Shown in pieces: positions 29,167 through 38,349 of a stretch of 64,000 nt of DNA. Within the stretch, counting starts at the first letter, position 1, and every line of letters begins with the position of its first letter. The position numbers were made by a program, and so were the translations under genes. The stretch is from Lachnospiraceae bacterium. GTDB taxonomy: Bacteria > Bacillota > Clostridia > Lachnospirales > Lachnospiraceae. The notes beneath the pieces were generated by a model. That model was given only the letters and a program-made list of their open reading frames with translations. It had not been told where the DNA came from and did not search any database. Where the stretch lies: the NCBI GenBank assembly GCA_017518735.1, contig JAFWTY010000004.1, positions 1-64,000 of the forward strand, in the 5' to 3' direction.

Positions 29167-30846
29167 TTAAAACTTACGGAAACGTTCGTAACGCTTTTCT
29201 GCCAGTTCTTCCGGACTGAGTTTGCTTACCTTCTTTAAGAACTCTTTCATATGGCCCTTCATGTAAGCACAAATGGAACTTAATGCGGGTGCATCCGCCA
29301 TTCCGTATTCCGGAATTACTTCCTCTACAATTTCAAGGCGTTTCAATTCAGACGCCGTAATCTTCATTACTTCTGCCGCTTCTTCGGCACGACTTCCGTC
29401 TTTCCAAAGAATGGAAGCAAATCCTTCCGGAGAAAGAATGGAATAGGTTGCATTCTCCAGCATCCAGACTTCATTTCCGACTGCGAGTGCCAGAGCACCG
29501 CCGCTGCCGCCTTCTCCGATCATGATTGCCAGAATCGGAGTTTTTAAACCACTCATTTCATAAAGGTTTCTTGCGATTGCCTCGCCCTGACCGTTCTGCT
29601 CAGCTTCCAGTCCGGGATAAGCACCGGATGTGTTGACGAATGTAATGATCGGTCGATGGAATTTTTCCGCCTGTTTCATCAAGCGAATGGCTTTTCTGTA
29701 TCCTTCGGGAGAAGGCATACCGTAGTTATGCGCGATACAACTCATCGCATCTTTTCCCTTGTTAACGCCGATTACCGTAACAGCCTGTCCATCCAATGTG
29801 GCAATTCCGCCGATGATAGCCGGATCATCTCGGAAATAACGGTCTCCGTGAAGTTCCGTAAAGGAATCAAAAATACCACCGATATAGTCTTCCGCTCCAA
29901 GTCTTGTAACCTGTCTTGCCGCACTGACCTTGTCCCAAACCTTTAAAACAGGGGTCTTTGCCGCACGTTCCTTCATCAGTTCGGTCGCATCATATCTGTC
30001 ACCGTCGTGTTCCGGATCAAAGTTTGCATATCCTTCTTTCGGAAGGTGGAATCTTAATATTTTATCCAGCGTATCTTTCAAATACTCTCTGGGTACGATT
30101 GCATCCACAAAACCATGTTCCAGCTGGAATTCCGCACGCTGGAATCCTTCCGGAAGCTTCTGTCCGATTGTCTGCTCGATAACACGGGGGCCTGCAAATC
30201 CGATTAAAGCCTTCGGTTCTGCAAGAATGATATCTCCGAGCATTGCAAAGCTTGCGGTTACACCGCCTGTGGTAGGATCGGTAAGTACGGGTACAAAAAG
30301 GAGTCCTGCTTCGGAGTGTTTCTTTAAGGCACCTGACGTTTTTGCCATCTGCATCAAGGATACAATACCTTCCTGCATTCTGGCACCACCGGAGCAACAG
30401 AATAAGATCACAGGAAGTTTTTCTTCAGTCGCACGCTCTACCGCCGCGGTAATGCGTTCTCCCACAACATGTCCCATACTTCCCATTAAGAATCTGGAAT
30501 CGATGACACCGAGTACGGTTTCATTTCCGCCAATCGTGCACTTTCCGATCATAACGCCTTCGGTCAGTCCGGTCTTTTCCTGTACTTCTTCGATTTTTCC
30601 TTCATATCCCGGAAAATCAAGAGGATTCTTCGTGCTCTCTTCTTCAAACCAGGCCGTAAAAGTACCTTCGTCTGCCACCATGCGGATTCTGTTTTTCGCT
30701 TTTACACGAAAATAATAACCGCATTCGTAACATACGTATTTACGCATAACTACGAGCTGTTTGTCGAGTTCTTTTTTACAGGAAGGACAGGTAATCAGTA
30801 CCCGTTCCTTGTTCTCTTCCGCTTTTTCAACCGGTAAAATTTTCAT
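29167..30846 (-). CDS. accDA: Acetyl-CoA carboxylase carboxyltransferase, beta and alpha subunits fused
   Basis: The 559-residue protein joins AccD (about 1-260) and AccA (about 285-550) in one chain. The AccD part has the four-cysteine zinc ribbon CPSC..CYEC (Cys20, 23, 39, 42) and the GGARMQEG oxyanion segment. The AccA part has [10 protein letters not shown] and [13 protein letters not shown]. The complex transfers carboxyl from biotin to acetyl-CoA to make malonyl-CoA. AccB and AccC, which supply carboxybiotin, are not in this operon. It is separated from fabD by 119 bp that hold tandem TTATGTTAAC repeats. Confidence 0.95.
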
Positions 30847-30965: not shown

Positions 30966-31931
30966 TTATTCGGAAATATACTTCTTATAATCTTCCAAAG
31001 TATCGATATTGGCACATTTTAAACCTCTGTCGATTTTCTTGACAAAACCGGTAAGGGTATGTCCGGGACCAACTTCGACGAATTCATCCGCTCCGTCTGC
31101 AACCAGTCTCTCGATAGTCTGAGTAAAGCGTACCGAAGAAGAAACCTGATTTACAAGAAGGTCTTTGATTCCTTCTTTTTGGTTTACATAATTTGCAGTT
31201 ACGTTTGCCACATAGGGAACCTTCGGATCTTCTACCGTTACGTCACTTAATACTTCTCCGAGTTTCTCTCCGGCTCCGATCAGGAGTTTGGAATGGAACG
31301 GTCCTGATACGTTTAAAGGTACGCACTTCAGTGCTCCTTTCTCCGCAAGAATAGCAGCTGCTTTTTCCACTGCATCCTTTCGTCCGGTAATAACCGTCTG
31401 CTTCGGATTGTTATAGTTGGCTACGGAAACCACATAGGGAAGATTTGCTGCAAAGTCCGCATCTGACCCTGCTTCGGGACCTGCCTCTTCCACTTCCTTG
31501 CAAACCGTTTCAATCACTTCGGGATCCAGTCCGATGACTGCGTTCATGGCACCGCCGTTCGGAACAGCTTCCTGCATGAAGATACCGCGTTTTCTGACAA
31601 CCTTGAATGCATCTTCCATGCTCATGGCACCGCTTGCCACAACTGCCGCATATTCGCCCAAAGATAAACCTGCACAAACATCGAAGGCAAAACCTTCTTC
31701 TTTCAATACTTCGTAAAGTGCCAGTTCTTCGGTCAGCATGCAAATCTGGGTATATTCCGTAATGTTGATCTGCTCGTTTTCTTCAAAGCACATTTTTGCA
31801 ATGTCGAGTCCGGTCACTTCGGACGCCTTGTCAAAAACTGCTTTTGCCACAGGATAAGAATCATAGAATTCCTTTCCCATGCCGATATACTGGGAACCCT
31901 GTCCCGGGAATAACAATACTCTCTTTCCCAT
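30966..31931 (-). CDS. fabD: Malonyl-CoA:ACP transacylase
   Basis: The 321-residue protein has the FabD signatures: LFPGQGSQYIGMG at the N-terminus, the nucleophile motif AGLSLGEYAA, and the catalytic His in VSGPFHSKLL. It loads malonyl units onto ACP. Its ribosome binding site lies at the end of a 36-codon ORF that stops six bases before the start. A 30-residue insert around 155-165 (GPEAGSDADF) lengthens a surface loop slightly. Confidence 0.97.
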   Translation of the reverse strand: MGKRVLLFPGQGSQYIGMGKEFYDSYPVAKAVFDKASEVTGLDIAKMCFEENEQINITEYTQICMLTEELALYEVLKEEGFAFDVCAGLSLGEYAAVVASGAMSMEDAFKVVRKRGIFMQEAVPNGGAMNAVIGLDPEVIETVCKEVEEAGPEAGSDADFAANLPYVVSVANYNNPKQTVITGRKDAVEKAAAILAEKGALKCVPLNVSGPFHSKLLIGAGEKLGEVLSDVTVEDPKVPYVANVTANYVNQKEGIKDLLVNQVSSSVRFTQTIERLVADGADEFVEVGPGHTLTGFVKKIDRGLKCANIDTLEDYKKYISE

Positions 31932-32068: not shown

Positions 32069-32512
32069 CTATGAATAGATTGCTTCTTTATCTATCGCGC
32101 AGAAGGCAAGTTTTCCTTTTGCACGAAGTGCTCCGTCTACGGTAACCTTTGCATCAAACTTGATCAGTCCCGCACCGCCGGACTCTTTCGTTACTTCAAT
32201 CGTAAGGGTATCTCCGGGAATAACCGGTTTAACAAATTTAAATTCGTCCACCTTAAGAAGCACCCAGATCTTGCTTTCGTCCGTTCCGTCGCTTTCGATG
32301 GTTACGGAGCAAAGCTGTGCGCATGCTTCGGTAATCAGTACACCCGGCATGATCGGAGCATCGGGAAAATGTCCCATGAAATACGGTTCGTTGATGGAAA
32401 CGTTTTTGATTCCCTTTGCATATTCGCCGCCTCTGATTTCTTCGATTTTTTCAATCATCTGAAAAGGAGGACGCTGTTTGATTCTTTTTTGTACTTCGTT
32501 AATATTCATCAT
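32069..32512 (-). CDS. fabZ: 3-hydroxyacyl-ACP dehydratase
   Basis: The 147-residue protein is a hot-dog-fold FabZ. The catalytic His lies in GHFPDAPIMPGVLITEACAQ and the helix glutamate in the same segment; the N-terminus has QRPPFQMIEKI. It removes water from 3-hydroxyacyl-ACP. It follows fabG by 13 bp. No enoyl-ACP reductase (FabI, FabK, FabL) is found in this operon. Confidence 0.96.
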   Translation of the reverse strand: MMNINEVQKRIKQRPPFQMIEKIEEIRGGEYAKGIKNVSINEPYFMGHFPDAPIMPGVLITEACAQLCSVTIESDGTDESKIWVLLKVDEFKFVKPVIPGDTLTIEVTKESGGAGLIKFDAKVTVDGALRAKGKLAFCAIDKEAIYS

Positions 32513-32525
32513 GGTCTTTTCCTCC

Positions 32526-33275
32526 TTACAGGCTGAGTCCGCCGTCCAAAACGATTACCTGTCCGGTTAAGTAAGAGCATGCATCGGATGCAAGCATTGC
32601 TACCACATCACCGACTTCTTCGGGACGTCCAAATCGTTTAAGAGGAATCTCTGTTAAATACTGCTCTTTCTTATCTTCCGGAAGTTTGTCCACCATATCG
32701 GTTGCGATAAATCCGGGAGCAACTGCATTTACGCGAATTCCATAAGGAGCAAGTTCTTTCGCCATTGTCTGTGTCATGGAGTTTACGGCACCCTTTGTGG
32801 AGGAGTATACGCTCTGTCCGGGTACTGCAAGTTTGGAACTTACGGAAGACATATTGATAATGCAGCCTTTTTTCTTGGAGAACATCTTAAGAGCTGCCTG
32901 CTGTGAGCAGTATAAATATCCCTTGATGTTCAGATCCAAGCACTTATCGATTGCATCGGGAGTCATCATCAGTACGAATTCGTCCTGAACAATTCCTGCA
33001 TTATTTACCAAAACATCGAGTTTTCCATATGTCTTGGTCACTTCACGCATCATTGCCTTTACTTCGTTTAAATCACCGACATTGGCTTTTACCTTCATTG
33101 CATCGGAGCCTGCTTCCTTAATGATGTTTACCACTTCATCAGCAGCTGCTTCGTTGGAATTGTAGTTTACCGCAACCGTAAATCCGGCTTTTCCGAGTGC
33201 AATGGCACATGCTCTTCCGATTCCTCTGGATGCGCCGGTAACCAATGCAACTTTGATTTCCTTGTTCTCTTCCAT
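32526..33275 (-). CDS. fabG: 3-oxoacyl-ACP reductase
   Basis: The 249-residue short-chain dehydrogenase has the NADP motif TGASRGIGRA, NNAG, the catalytic Ser in NMSSVSS, and YSSTKGAV with Tyr and Lys. The C-terminal LTGQVIVLDGGLSL is typical of FabG. It reduces 3-oxoacyl-ACP. It sits 24 bp after the double ketosynthase and 13 bp before fabZ. Confidence 0.96.
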   Translation of the reverse strand: MEENKEIKVALVTGASRGIGRACAIALGKAGFTVAVNYNSNEAAADEVVNIIKEAGSDAMKVKANVGDLNEVKAMMREVTKTYGKLDVLVNNAGIVQDEFVLMMTPDAIDKCLDLNIKGYLYCSQQAALKMFSKKKGCIINMSSVSSKLAVPGQSVYSSTKGAVNSMTQTMAKELAPYGIRVNAVAPGFIATDMVDKLPEDKKEQYLTEIPLKRFGRPEEVGDVVAMLASDACSYLTGQVIVLDGGLSL

Positions 33276-33299: not shown

Positions 33300-35678
33300 C
33301 TATTCTGCTTTCTTTAATACAACCGCACTGTAAGTACCGCCTGTTCCCTGTGCTACCGCAAGAACATTCTTCCAGGAGGAAGTATTTACTTTCTTGACTT
33401 CCACGCCGTTTTCAAAAACGAATGCATCCTGGTCTGCAGCCAGATCTCCGGAAAGGGTCAGTGCTGCATGTGCAACGGAAAGGGTTGCTGCTGCGGCTCT
33501 GGCTTCACCGATGTACTCTCTTACGTTGATAACGGGTGTAGCAGAGAACATCTCTTTTACAAGCCCGATTTCAATATCGTCTACGTCTTTTACGCCGTTA
33601 CCGAGACCGAAAATACCGTCTACATCGCCTGCGGAAATACCTGCCATGGAAAGGGCCATTGTAACCGCATTCTTAAGACCTGCATCGGATCCCTTGATTT
33701 CTCCGTACTTAACGCCTTCATGCGCCATACCGTAACCGGCAACAACCGCATATTTCTTGGAGCCGTGCTTTTCTGCACTGCTCTTGCTTTCCAATGCAAC
33801 GGATACGGAACCGTCGGATAATGTCTGTCCGGACTGGTTTACATAAAGTTTAGCATCACCATCGGCAACAAGTCCGAGCTGTCCATAGAGTTTCTGCATT
33901 ACGGCACTGTTTTCATCGGTACCTGTTGCAAGCATACCCTTTGCACGGTTCTGCTTGATTTCATGGAATGCATAGCCGACACTCTGTAAACCGGACTGGC
34001 TTCCGTTCGTTATGGTAACGTTGTATCCGCGAAGACCTGTCTTAATGGAAAGATATCCGCCTGCCGCATTGTATACGGTGTTCGGGAAGTTGAATGCGGA
34101 ACCGTTCTCGTTTCCTTCCTTTGCAATGTGATCTTCAAATTCATATACGGTAGTGAGCGGGCCGTCGCCGGTTCCGATAATCATACCGTAATCTTCTTCT
34201 TTTCCTTCTTCGGGAGCAATTCCTGCTTCCTTTAATGCTTCCAGGCCGGAAACAACCTGCATTAAGCTGAACTTGTCGAGTTTTCTGAAAAATGCCATCT
34301 TGATATCGAATTTACCAAAATCATCTTTTCCGACTTCGGCAAGAACACTGTTACCGGATACCTTGTTCCCTGCATTAATCTGGTTTACATAATTCTCTAC
34401 ACCGTTTCCTAACGGAGATACGATTCCCAGACCGGTGATGTATACTTCTTCATCACTTTCGGTTTCTTTTACTTCACCGAGATCTTTTGCAAAAATGACA
34501 CTCGCATTGCTTCCGCCGAAAGCGAAGTTATTGGACATAACCGCCTTTAACTCTTTTTCTCTTGCGGTGTTCGGCATGAAATCGATCTCGCCTGCTTTTT
34601 CCTTTAAGACATCCAAATCTTCAGCGGAATAACCGATTGTGGGAGGAATCTTTCCTTCCGTTAATGCCTTAATGGAATATACAGCTTCAATTGCACCTGC
34701 AGCACCAAGGCAGTGGCCAACCATGGCCTTTACGGAACTTACGGATAAATCTCCGCCTGCATTGTCAAAAATCGTATGCAGGGACAAAAACTCAGTTTCG
34801 TCATTCTTTGCGGTACCGGTACCGTGTGCATTTACATAGCCGATGTCGGATTTCTGAAGTCCGGACATCTCAATGGCACGATTGATTGCATACATCTGAC
34901 CGATTCCGTCGGGACGGGGTGCCGTAATATGATAAGCGTCCGAGCTGATTCCTGCGGCAAGAACGTCACAGTAAATCTTTGCTCCACGTTTGCTTGCATG
35001 TTCATAGGATTCTACCACCATTGCTCCGGCGCCCTCTCCCAGGGTAATACCATTGGAGTGGTTGAACGGAGAACAGGGATTTTCGGATAATGCATGAAGT
35101 GCATGGAATCCGGAAAAAGGAACCGATGCAAAAGCATCTGCACCACCGACAATAAATACATCCGCTACACCTGCACGAATCAGTTCACACGCATATGCTA
35201 CCGAAATCGCACCTGCTGCACAGGCATTACCAACGTTTGTAATAACACCCTTTGCACCGAATCTTGTTGCAACGTGATTTGCGATGGAAGAAATGGTCAT
35301 CTTGTTGATATCTTCGGTCTTCTCACCATTGGTGATGTATTCCTCGATACTTAACACACCTCCGACACAGCTTCCCATGATTACTCCGAATCTTGTCGGA
35401 TCCTCAATGGAACCTTCCAGTTTGGAATCCGCAAACGCTTCGCCGGATGCCTTTAAACAGAGCACGGATACACGATCCTTCTCTTCTTCCTTCGGAAGTT
35501 CAAAATCGATTTCAGCGCCGAGATTTGCATAGCAGTTATCTGCGTTAACGCTCTTTACATGATCGATTCCTTCTTTTCCTGCCAGGGCATTTTCCCAGCA
35601 CTCTTCCACATTTGCACCGATGGCATTTACCATGCCGAGACCGGTTACCACACATCTGGTGTTTAATTGTCTTTCCAT
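33300..35678 (-). CDS. Double ketosynthase: active KS fused to an inactive KS-like half
   Basis: The 792-residue protein has two ketosynthase folds. The first (about 5-400) has the full Cys-His-His triad: Cys153 in GNACAAG, His285 in NAHGTGT and His322 in VGHCLGAAGA. The second (about 412-790) keeps the fold (VYITGLGIVSPLG, FRKLDKFSLMQV). It lacks the triad: the cysteine site reads NGSQSG, the first His site reads GLGNGVKD and the second reads GEARAAAA. This is the plan of a KS joined to a chain-length-factor-like partner, as in type II polyketide and aryl polyene systems, but within one chain. Standard FabF is about 410 residues. Confidence 0.92.
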   Translation of the reverse strand: MERQLNTRCVVTGLGMVNAIGANVEECWENALAGKEGIDHVKSVNADNCYANLGAEIDFELPKEEEKDRVSVLCLKASGEAFADSKLEGSIEDPTRFGVIMGSCVGGVLSIEEYITNGEKTEDINKMTISSIANHVATRFGAKGVITNVGNACAAGAISVAYACELIRAGVADVFIVGGADAFASVPFSGFHALHALSENPCSPFNHSNGITLGEGAGAMVVESYEHASKRGAKIYCDVLAAGISSDAYHITAPRPDGIGQMYAINRAIEMSGLQKSDIGYVNAHGTGTAKNDETEFLSLHTIFDNAGGDLSVSSVKAMVGHCLGAAGAIEAVYSIKALTEGKIPPTIGYSAEDLDVLKEKAGEIDFMPNTAREKELKAVMSNNFAFGGSNASVIFAKDLGEVKETESDEEVYITGLGIVSPLGNGVENYVNQINAGNKVSGNSVLAEVGKDDFGKFDIKMAFFRKLDKFSLMQVVSGLEALKEAGIAPEEGKEEDYGMIIGTGDGPLTTVYEFEDHIAKEGNENGSAFNFPNTVYNAAGGYLSIKTGLRGYNVTITNGSQSGLQSVGYAFHEIKQNRAKGMLATGTDENSAVMQKLYGQLGLVADGDAKLYVNQSGQTLSDGSVSVALESKSSAEKHGSKKYAVVAGYGMAHEGVKYGEIKGSDAGLKNAVTMALSMAGISAGDVDGIFGLGNGVKDVDDIEIGLVKEMFSATPVINVREYIGEARAAAATLSVAHAALTLSGDLAADQDAFVFENGVEVKKVNTSSWKNVLAVAQGTGGTYSAVVLKKAE

Positions 35679-35706
35679 TTTCCGATAAACTCCTTATTAT
35701 TTCTTT

Positions 35707-35876
35707 CAACTACATTTATAGTTGTTTTTGCTAATTCTTTAGCAGTTCATTCCGGCCTCCGACTTGCAAATACCCCCTCTGGGACAACTTGCAAGTCGGC
35801 AACCTAATTTAAATCATAGTGCAGGGGGTCTGCTAATGTTGCACATTAGCAGACTTCCTCTCGCTAAAGCGAGAGG
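35707..35876. repeat. Five successive hairpins between the ACP and ketosynthase genes
   Basis: The 199-bp gap holds five inverted repeats: 35707-35724 (6 bp), 35729-35744 (6 bp), 35759-35799 (11 bp), 35828-35854 (12 bp, perfect, loop of 3) and 35857-35876 (8-9 bp, perfect). The last abuts the ACP stop codon. None is followed by a T-run on the minus strand, so they do not look like ordinary terminators. They may stabilise or process the mRNA so that ACP is made in excess over the ketosynthase. Confidence 0.8.
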
Positions 35877-35877
35877 A

Positions 35878-36129
35878 CTATTCCATATGCTCTACTACAT
35901 ATTTGGTAAGTGCAGTAATGTTGTAGAAATGCTCTTTGCCAACACCGGTCATAGCTACACCGAATTCGCTGTCGATGCAGGAGATGATTTCAAGAGAATC
36001 TACGCTGTCAAGTCCGATTCCGTCGCCGAAAAGAGCGATTTCATAATCGAGTTCTTCTTCGGGAATTCTTAAGTTGTCTACAAGCATTCCTTTGATCTTT
36101 TCTGCAACCTGAAGTTCTTTTTCGTTCAT
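35878..36129 (-). CDS. Acyl carrier protein
   Basis: The 83-residue acidic protein has the phosphopantetheine site Ser42 in GLDSVDSLEI. The sequence around it (ALFGDGIGLDSVDSLEIIS) differs from the usual FabF-type ACP (DLGADSLDTVEL) and is closer, from memory, to the ACPs of aryl polyene and similar type II systems. The start at 36129 is preferred over an in-frame ATG four codons earlier, which has no room for a ribosome binding site. It is followed at once by a row of hairpins. Confidence 0.92.
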   Translation of the reverse strand: MNEKELQVAEKIKGMLVDNLRIPEEELDYEIALFGDGIGLDSVDSLEIISCIDSEFGVAMTGVGKEHFYNITALTKYVVEHME

Positions 36130-36206
36130 TTTTTGTTCCATCCTTTTCTTAAAAATAGTATCTTTGGTTACTTATATTTAATCCGGTCTTCCGGAATAAA
36201 CCTACA

Positions 36207-36860
36207 TTAGTAGTTCTTTACATCCTCTGTGGCATACTTGGGATTTCCGAACTTTTTCTTTAATTCAATGACGGTTTTTTTGCAGTTTTCCGCATGTTTT
36301 TTCAGTACTGCGGAAGGTCTTCCCTCTTCGCGAAGATTCGGAGTCTGCGACTTTCCGATAATGATACGCGTCATGTGGAAGGGCTTCATCTTGTTGTCGA
36401 TACAAATCGGAACAAGAGGTACACCGGACTGCTTTGCCAGCATCAAAAATCCGGGCTTGAAGTCTAACATGTTTCCGTCCTTGCTTGTATGACCTTCCGG
36501 GAAAAAGTAGATGCTTTTTCCTTCTTCCAGTGTTTCCTTTCCTTTGTAAATCCAGGAGGTATCCATCTGCTGGCGGTCAATCGGTATATAGCGAAGATTT
36601 CTGAAAAGCCAGTTTAATTTCTTCTTTTCGTACCAGTCTCTTCCTACAAAAATGTAAACATTGTAGCGACTCAATAAGCTCGTCATGAAGAGTCCGTCGG
36701 AATATCCGGTGTGGTTGGAATAAATCAGACAGGAGCCGTTTAAAACTTTCATTGTCTCCTCTTTATCTTCCCAAACCATCTTGTGAGGATAAATCAGACG
36801 AAGGACCGGAACCGCAATCGCATATATAATTTGCACTATTCCATGAATAATCGTCTGCAT
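36207..36860 (-). CDS. PlsC-type lysophospholipid acyltransferase
   Basis: The 217-residue protein has an N-terminal membrane helix (about 5-24) and the acyltransferase motifs: NHTGYSD with His50 and Asp55 (HX4D), and FFPEGHTS with Glu122. It should move an acyl chain from ACP or CoA to a glycerophosphate-type acceptor at the membrane. Its place in the operon, just before the ACP, suggests it uses the product of the double ketosynthase. It starts one base after the flavodoxin-like gene ends. Confidence 0.9.
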   Translation of the reverse strand: MQTIIHGIVQIIYAIAVPVLRLIYPHKMVWEDKEETMKVLNGSCLIYSNHTGYSDGLFMTSLLSRYNVYIFVGRDWYEKKKLNWLFRNLRYIPIDRQQMDTSWIYKGKETLEEGKSIYFFPEGHTSKDGNMLDFKPGFLMLAKQSGVPLVPICIDNKMKPFHMTRIIIGKSQTPNLREEGRPSAVLKKHAENCKKTVIELKKKFGNPKYATEDVKNY

Positions 36861-36861
36861 C

Positions 36862-37611
36862 CTAGTTTATCTTTCCGTAGGGGCCCACTTCCGGGTCATC
36901 CCAGTTTAAATTGATTGCCTGTGCAAATGTATTGTGCCCAAGCATCGGAACTTCCAATTTCTTAATTGTTTCTTCGCTTACTTCACCTTCGCGAACGAAT
37001 TCTTTTCCGGCTTCGGTGAATTTCGTAAGATATCTTGCCACTTTGTTTTCAAAAGTTTTCTCGGCAAGCATTCCGCCCTGAGGTGCGGTAATCAACGTAT
37101 AGCCTTTCGGTCCGCAGATCCGGTCAAACTGAAGTCTTACCGAATCATAACAGTCCACCGTTTCTTCGTATCCGCATGCGGAAACCAGAACCAGTTTCTT
37201 TTTCATCAGCTCCGGGAATCGCATTTCATGAAGGAAACGTCCCGTCGACTCATCTCCGTTTACGGCGCGGTATTCGGAAACATAACAGATCATGCGGTCC
37301 ATAAATGCTTTCAGTTTGGAAGGCAATCCGAAGAAGTAGAGGGGAAAGCTTTCTATGATTACATCGCTTTCCATAATCAGAGCACGGATCTCGTCCATAT
37401 CATCATGGATCACACATTTTCCCTTGGAATTCTTCCAGCAGCAAAAGCATCCGTGGCAGTGATCAATCTTTTTATCTTTTAAACTGATTTCGGTTACGGT
37501 CGTGTTTTCTTCGCCATTTTCCAAAACCATACCCTGCACAAAAGCTCTTGCTATTTTCAATGAGGAGCTCGTTTCTCCTCTCAAACTTCCGTTTATCAGT
37601 AAAATACGCAT
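36862..37611 (-). CDS. Flavodoxin-like NAD(P)H-dependent FMN reductase family protein
   Basis: The 249-residue protein has the flavodoxin-like N-terminus RILLINGSLRGETSSS for FMN phosphate binding and the four-cysteine patch CHGCFCCWKNSKGKC, typical of iron-sulfur flavoprotein relatives. Later motifs include SFPLYFFGLPSKLKAFMDR. The start at 37611 is chosen for its AAAGGTGGAG site. It is the first gene of the lipid operon. It may supply reducing power or reduce an acyl or polyene intermediate; that is inference. Confidence 0.88.
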   Translation of the reverse strand: MRILLINGSLRGETSSSLKIARAFVQGMVLENGEENTTVTEISLKDKKIDHCHGCFCCWKNSKGKCVIHDDMDEIRALIMESDVIIESFPLYFFGLPSKLKAFMDRMICYVSEYRAVNGDESTGRFLHEMRFPELMKKKLVLVSACGYEETVDCYDSVRLQFDRICGPKGYTLITAPQGGMLAEKTFENKVARYLTKFTEAGKEFVREGEVSEETIKKLEVPMLGHNTFAQAINLNWDDPEVGPYGKIN

Positions 37612-37686
37612 TCTTCTCCACCTTTCAAGCCACAATAATTCTCCCAAAAAGTGAATCTTTTCTCAATACGCATTTTCCCTTGAATG

Positions 37687-37764: not shown

Positions 37765-38349
37765 TTATCCCTTTTTTGCCATGTTCAAAAGAATATGTTC
37801 CGCCACTCCGTCAAGCATTGTGATAGCCTGTTCCATGGTAACTGCCGGATCCGCTCCGCGTTTCCCGCGAATCCAGTCCACCGTCGTCTCGGAAAACATT
37901 TTTGCAAAAAGATAGGCCGCTCTGTCCTTCTCATCCTGCGTCAGCGTATAGCCGTTTTCCCGGTACATGCTTTCCCCATATTGGTCGATATAGTTTCTCG
38001 CGGGACGATACGCCAGGTCGGTCATATAATCCCCGAAAGCGTCCCTTCCCATGGACTGATACATATTCTTGATAAAAGCTTCGTTTTTCTTGGCATACTG
38101 TCCCATGAAACGAAGATTACTGATCCAGTCACTCTCTCCGAGCTGCATGGATTCCGGAAACAGTTTATCGGATTTGGAATAGATGATTTCCTCCATCAGG
38201 GAATAGACATCCTGATAATAGTAATAAAACGTATTCCTGTTGATTCCGCAATGCTTGGAAATCATCGTTACGGTAATCTTTTCGATGGGATACGTTTTGG
38301 ATAACTCGATGAAACTGTCTATGATTGCTTTTTTGGTAAATTGGCTCAT
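37765..38349 (-). CDS. TetR family transcriptional regulator
   Basis: The 194-residue protein has an N-terminal TetR helix-turn-helix (about 8-55: IEKITVTMISKHCGINRNTFYYYY) and a helical C-terminal ligand domain. The start overlaps the stop of the ECF S-component gene (ATGA), so it belongs to the riboswitch-led operon. Its target is unknown. The lipid operon just downstream and the cobalamin genes are both candidates. Confidence 0.92.
   Translation of the reverse strand: MSQFTKKAIIDSFIELSKTYPIEKITVTMISKHCGINRNTFYYYYQDVYSLMEEIIYSKSDKLFPESMQLGESDWISNLRFMGQYAKKNEAFIKNMYQSMGRDAFGDYMTDLAYRPARNYIDQYGESMYRENGYTLTQDEKDRAAYLFAKMFSETTVDWIRGKRGADPAVTMEQAITMLDGVAEHILLNMAKKG

Follow-up and report, generated by a model that had tools for sequence, protein, structure and literature searches.

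A fused ketosynthase–chain-length factor in a Lachnospiraceae bacterium and its operon, a probable polyene-type synthase lacking an enoyl reductase

Several described systems resemble the locus reported here in lacking an enoyl reductase (ER), in carrying a ketosynthase (KS) fused to a chain-length factor (CLF), or in both. The pks and fun clusters of Lactobacillus reuteri R2lc lack an ER and encode ketosynthases of 688 aa (pksB) and 798 aa (funB); their products are predicted by the authors to be conjugated polyenes, and inactivation of pks abolishes activation of the aryl hydrocarbon receptor (AhR) (PMC6498181). Judged by length alone, both ketosynthases would be KS–CLF fusions. The granadaene cyl and cyl-like operons (PMC6985545) comprise FabD, FabG, an acyl carrier protein (ACP), FabZ and a KS, also with no ER. 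In the cyl-like operon on pBM500 of Priestia megaterium QM B1551 the KS is a fused KS–CLF of 809 aa, and the operon includes a GcvT-like gene that would correspond to cylF. The aryl polyene (APE) clusters, which again have no ER, have the CLF on a polypeptide of its own, which is 240 aa long in E. coli CFT073, and one report describes ApeO–ApeC alone giving a fully elongated polyene in vitro (PMC8358021). The KS–CLF of PfaC (6riw) is a single chain, but PfaC belongs to a PUFA synthase, a type I megasynthase characterised by tandem ACPs and a FabA-like dehydratase (DH). Fused KS–CLFs of 784–788 aa are found in Streptomyces NBC_00335 and HUAS 15-9, in clusters that also hold extra separate KSs, a KASIII, two DHs and tailoring enzymes. 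Fused KS–CLFs of about 785 aa are encoded on Streptomyces linear plasmids (L134, L140 and others), where the surrounding type II cluster also holds a KASIII and two additional KSs.

The locus described here lies in a window of 64,000 nucleotides, the whole stretch of DNA that was analysed (Lachnospiraceae bacterium, assembly GCA_017518735.1, contig JAFWTY010000004.1, positions 1 to 64,000). Related loci were compared in a census of 85. The operon is read in the following order:

37765..38349, minus strand: TetR-family regulator, DhaS-like, TetR_C_8; a TetR gene is near the cluster in 39/85 loci
36862..37647, minus strand: FMN_red/flavodoxin-like flavoprotein with a cysteine cluster (CHGCFCCW...C); PF03358; 69/85 loci
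36207..36860, minus strand: PlsC/AGPAT-like acyltransferase, 217 aa, with NHTGYSDG and FPEGHTS; PF01553; 59/85 loci
35878..36141, minus strand: ACP, 87 aa, serine site GLDSVDSLEI; PF00550; precedes KS–CLF in 79/85 loci
33300..35678, minus strand: KS–CLF fusion, 792 aa, whole open reading frame; fused in 83/85 loci, the other two (L079 and L100, which begin near a contig end) being cut
32526..33275, minus strand: FabG-type ketoreductase (KR), 249 aa; FabG in 82/85 loci
32069..32512, minus strand: FabZ-type DH, 147 aa, GHFPDAPIMPGVL; NF000582 above cut-off; 81/85 loci
30966..31931, minus strand: FabD malonyl-CoA:ACP transacylase, 321 aa, GLSLGEYAA; TIGR00128 score 306.6 over a cut-off of 260.9; 53/85 loci
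29167..30846, minus strand: fused AccD–AccA carboxyltransferase (AccDA), 559 aa; TIGR00515 and TIGR00513 above cut-offs

The core ACP–KS/CLF–FabG–FabZ recurs in about 80/85 loci. It is joined by a carboxyltransferase in 54/85 (AccDA is split or PCC-beta-like in some relatives) and by a patatin-like gene in 19/85, and some acholeplasma-type loci add a second ACP (ACP2), AccB, AccC and a biotin ligase-like gene. No ER family recurs across the 85 loci and none was found in the window cluster. Because its cluster lacks this enzyme, the operon is not an ordinary fatty-acid gene set, in line with the preliminary description, which had suggested a product other than ordinary fatty acid. With the L. 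reuteri clusters it shares a Firmicute gut symbiont background, ACP, KR, DH, FabD and acetyl-CoA carboxylase subunits, the lack of an ER and, as in fun, a TetR gene. In contrast, the PPTase of both L. reuteri clusters, the MFS transporter and MBL-fold hydrolase of pks and the aminotransferase-type enzyme of fun are absent here, whereas the PlsC-like transferase and the flavoprotein set our operon apart from them. An MBL-fold hydrolase, compare pksG, lies near the cluster in only 3 related loci. The Priestia fusion is 31.6% identical to ours, but no homologue of CylE, CylF, CylJ or the ABC exporter was seen in the window cluster; neither CylE nor CylF was recognised among the window neighbours or the families shared by at least 4 loci. 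The operon resembles APE clusters in its KR, DH, ACP and acyltransferase and in the grouping of its KS half with ApeO, whereas the ApeR-type second KS, the MMPL/LolA exporter and the aryl starter genes of CFT073 are missing from the window genes. PfaC has the same overall KS–CLF arrangement, but the enzymes here are discrete and the DH is of the FabZ type. The Streptomyces fusions fall in the same clades as ours, and NBC_00335 carries the family motif in the version FPNTVFNAA. The separate KS and CLF polypeptides of type II polyketide synthases (PKSs) are replaced by a single chain in 83/85 loci, the other two being cut.

The open reading frame of the KS–CLF is single, uninterrupted and complete, and both PF00109 and PF02801 match its protein twice (Pfam). 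Residues 1 to about 400 are FabF-like and residues from about 403 to 792 form a second KS fold; the two halves align over 353 aa with 21% identity (E=7e-16). Their positions are as follows:

34479..35678, minus strand: N-terminal active KS half, aa 1-400
35220-35222 (Cys153), 34824-34826 (His285), 34728-34730 (Lys317) and 34713-34715 (His322), minus strand: catalytic residues of the N half
33303..34478, minus strand: C-terminal CLF half, aa 401-792
33999-34001 (Ser560), 33603-33605 (Leu692) and 33504-33506 (Glu725), minus strand: triad positions of the C half

In the N half, Cys153 lies in NACAAG, His285 in HGTGT and His322 in VGHCLGAAG; these residues and Lys317 are invariant in 86/86 fused homologues. 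The corresponding sites of the C half are Ser560 (NGSQSG), Leu692 (GLGNG) and Glu725 (IGEARA), and this half carries the family motif SAFNFPNTVYNAAGG. Across the homologues, the column equivalent to the catalytic cysteine holds A, S, P, N, M, T, F or H and in 0/86 cases Cys, whereas Glu725 is kept in 82/86. Gln561 is present in 74/86, one residue past the Cys-equivalent in this alignment, while aromatic CLFs have Gln at the Cys position itself. Neither chance nor decay comes close to explaining this pattern of triad presence and absence. When close relatives are compared in pairs, the KS half has a dN/dS of 0.04-0.06 and the CLF half one of 0.07-0.15, and the latter values indicate that the CLF half is a maintained non-catalytic domain. 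These observations bear out the earlier proposal of a KS/CLF logic, in which a first half with the full Cys-His-His triad is joined to a second half that keeps the KS fold and has lost all three residues. The protein scores 466.1 against TIGR03150, the FabF equivalog, which is below the cut-off of 493.75, but passes the looser FabF subfamily PRK07314 (450.5 over 387). Since a standard model names the KS–CLF FabF, genome-based metabolic reconstructions may credit its carriers with fatty-acid synthesis that they lack.

An AlphaFold (AF2) model built from 58 aligned fusions has a mean pLDDT of 92.5 and a pTM of 0.94. Among the Foldseek matches listed from the PDB, the only full-length one is the PfaC KS–CLF 6riw (TMq 0.80 over 913 columns, at about 18% sequence identity); the remaining listed matches span one half only and are nearly all FabF-type enzymes. 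The model thus supports an intramolecular KS–CLF pseudo-dimer formed by the two halves, the arrangement expected from the preliminary description. In the tree, 20 CLF halves from Lachnospiraceae, other Clostridia, Treponema, Fibrobacter, acholeplasmas, Priestia and Streptomyces form one clade (100/98), and the matching KS halves together with E. coli ApeO form a second (100/99), separate from FabF. The exact placement of ApeO is unsure because of long branches (ApeO, Streptomyces).

We propose that the KS–CLF is probably the core of a single-chain, iterative, reducing, ER-less type II PKS, whose product would be a polyenoyl chain of limited length, destined for a glycerolipid. In this proposal AccDA and FabD would supply malonyl-ACP, which the N half would add by condensation to the chain growing on ACP; the dead C half would complete the pseudo-dimer and a chain-holding pocket that limits length. 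Each cycle would comprise reduction by FabG and dehydration by FabZ; because there is no ER, the alkenes would be retained and the polyenoyl-ACP would stay conjugated. The PlsC-like acyltransferase, to judge from its family only, would pass the chain to glycerol or a lysolipid head, and the end product would be a membrane-bound polyene lipid of the pigment or antioxidant type. The steps assigned to FabD, KS, FabG, FabZ and CLF are those of established type II PKS and APE biochemistry. Beyond the fusion, the dead triad, the predicted pseudo-dimer fold, the conserved ER-less gene set and the phylogeny, we infer the polyene nature of the chain, the number of cycles, the starter unit, the acceptor and the role of the product. 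Fused relatives sit in cyl-like (Priestia) and polyene-type (Streptomyces) clusters. Several points weigh against this proposal: the flavoprotein may be a reductase that has escaped recognition; its own genus having no other recognisable fatty-acid synthesis (FAS), the operon may have been recruited to make housekeeping lipids; the grouping with ApeO rests partly on a long branch; and the window cluster, unlike APE or cyl clusters, lacks an exporter, a PPTase and a dedicated starter enzyme.

The operon might instead be the primary fatty-acid synthase and the only de novo acyl synthase of its genus, with the flavoprotein or another enzyme acting as ER, a reading we consider unlikely. It draws its force from the gene content of the genome itself, in which profile searches, on which these absence calls rest, found no FabK, no FabI (the best match being the window FabG at 26%), no AccC and no FabH above cut-off. 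The only KS domains besides the KS–CLF lie, with an atypical FabH-like protein, in an unrelated NRPS-like cluster on C30. That cluster (C30:7855-16355, L004), small and lipid-like in its genes, encodes an NRPS-like protein of 972 aa, an SDR, a metallo-hydrolase and PaaK-like, FabH-like, ACP and FabF proteins. The frequency of the FMN_red flavoprotein also suits a primary synthase, as do AccB, AccC and a biotin ligase-like gene in some clusters (L103) or PlsX in another (Lachnospira eligens). However, strong FabK was found in 21/38 carriers and FabH above cut-off in 12/38, in genomes that were reached through the loci and may be incomplete, and the former count argues that in most carriers the operon is an additional pathway and not simply a FAS replacement. 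One of these carriers is G319, and its fusion and the Lachnospira eligens one are almost identical. Furthermore, FakA homologues are present in the window's own genome, which makes the use of exogenous fatty acids plausible; ordinary FAS would not normally involve a CLF; and the flavoprotein is missing in 16/85 loci, in some through contig ends. The own genus is without a recognisable type II FAS (FASII); most other carriers tested have one. The preliminary description had held that the operon would be the primary synthase if its second half were a recent duplicate and a separate complete FabF set were absent from the genome; no separate FASII set was indeed found here, but the recent duplication is contradicted by the tree and by the topology test described below.

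In the own genus, as in many further Lachnospiraceae carriers, AccDA is present but AccC is not. The sole biotin carrier found in the own genome (C35:82000-94000, L149) lies in a decarboxylase-type operon whose products also include an OadA/PycB-like carboxyltransferase, an MmdA-like protein and a membrane subunit of a decarboxylase, identities that were read from the sequences. This gene content suggests that AccDA may draw carboxyl groups by transcarboxylation for malonyl-CoA. It is conceivable, though we think quite improbable, that in genera that have lost FASII the KS–CLF operon is the sole de novo acyl synthase, with oxaloacetate carboxyltransferase, a shared biotin carrier and AccDA forming an AccC-less transcarboxylase and with an unrecognised flavoprotein ER.

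It is likewise doubtful that synthesis ends with a short chain of limited length and partial reduction, such as a 3-hydroxyacyl or enoyl chain, destined for a specific lipid head with no extended polyene. Type II PKS-like KS–CLF systems also make short non-aromatics of the cispentacin type, according to one report (PMC10698177), the AmcF and AmcE profiles match weakly, and patatin-like and PlsC-like genes are found with the cluster. Against such a product, our KS groups with ApeO, in a tree from which AmcF itself is absent, and no cyclase-type DH was found, the AmcE score being 52.6 against 140. A PUFA-synthase-like route, in which isomerising dehydratases would give methylene-interrupted double bonds, is very unlikely: PfaC is the best structural match, but the KS half scores 466 bits as FabF-type against 91 as PfaA-type, there are neither an ER nor tandem ACPs, and the DH is FabZ and not of the FabA type (FabA 29.5 against 238). 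Finally, that the second half is the decaying product of a recent internal FabF duplication can be dismissed: the halves are homologous and in tandem, but they share only 21% identity, the CLF halves of organisms ranging from Lachnospiraceae to Streptomyces group together and separately from the KS halves, dN/dS is low, and a constraint joining KS with CLF halves is rejected, although not overwhelmingly (p-AU 0.035).

A tree that sets the KS halves alone, without ApeO, is not rejected (p-AU 0.12). One old fusion that spread afterwards is the simplest reading of the sequences. The Fibrobacter and Treponema/spirochaete fusions (L114, L116, L123, L107, L126) nest together in KS and CLF halves alike, which suggests transfer between phyla.

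Scanning 84,980 species genomes, we identified 306 stretches that encode relatives of the CLF half. Fusion status was examined for the best 80 of the 306, which come from Lachnospiraceae, other Clostridia, Treponema, Fibrobacter, Acholeplasmatales, Erysipelotrichaceae and others, and many of which are named as rumen or faecal assemblies. A broader search of Bacilli with the Priestia CLF as query returned a few fusions, most of the other matches being ordinary FabF. A single-chain KS/CLF had been called unusual for a Firmicute lipid operon. It is indeed rare per genome (5/299 Lachnospiraceae genomes), but it has precedents in PfaC 6riw, Priestia megaterium, Streptomyces and Lachnospira eligens ATCC 27750, in which a fusion 54% identical to ours, WP_041688922.1, lies on the megaplasmid, and it recurs across phyla. 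A literature search for fused KS–CLFs found, under that name, only papers on PUFA synthases. Fused KS–CLFs as such are thus already known, and the cross-phylum gut variant is new. Among the bacteria of animal guts, a polyene-type synthase with a built-in chain-length partner appears to have spread through Bacillota, acholeplasmas, spirochaetes and Fibrobacter, and the L. reuteri cluster that follows this logic acts on the AhR of the host. The cultured carriers Lachnospira eligens ATCC 27750 and Ruminococcus bromii YE282 make the operon testable, and the fused pair, which fixes KS and CLF at 1:1, would aid the study of how a CLF sets chain length. As carriers include rumen fibre degraders, celluxanthene, the yellow pigment with affinity for cellulose, was considered as a product and rejected, because the PKS of its cex cluster is iterative and of type I (PMC12144888).

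One further feature of the operon lies immediately upstream of the KS–CLF gene:

35679..35877, minus strand: acp–KS/CLF intergenic spacer, highly structured, with at least three stable hairpins; z -6.8

The same spacer has a z of -8.4 in the sister genome, and the spacers of relatives have a median z of -4.8, with 43/56 loci, which are not independent, below -3. An Rfam search of the spacer region gave no match. This structure may set an excess of ACP over KS–CLF, through attenuation or mRNA protection. The other spacers of the operon have z values of -1.7 (PlsC–ACP), -0.5 (FabZ–FabD) and -0.1 (FabD–AccDA), and KS–FabG spacers reach -3.3 too.
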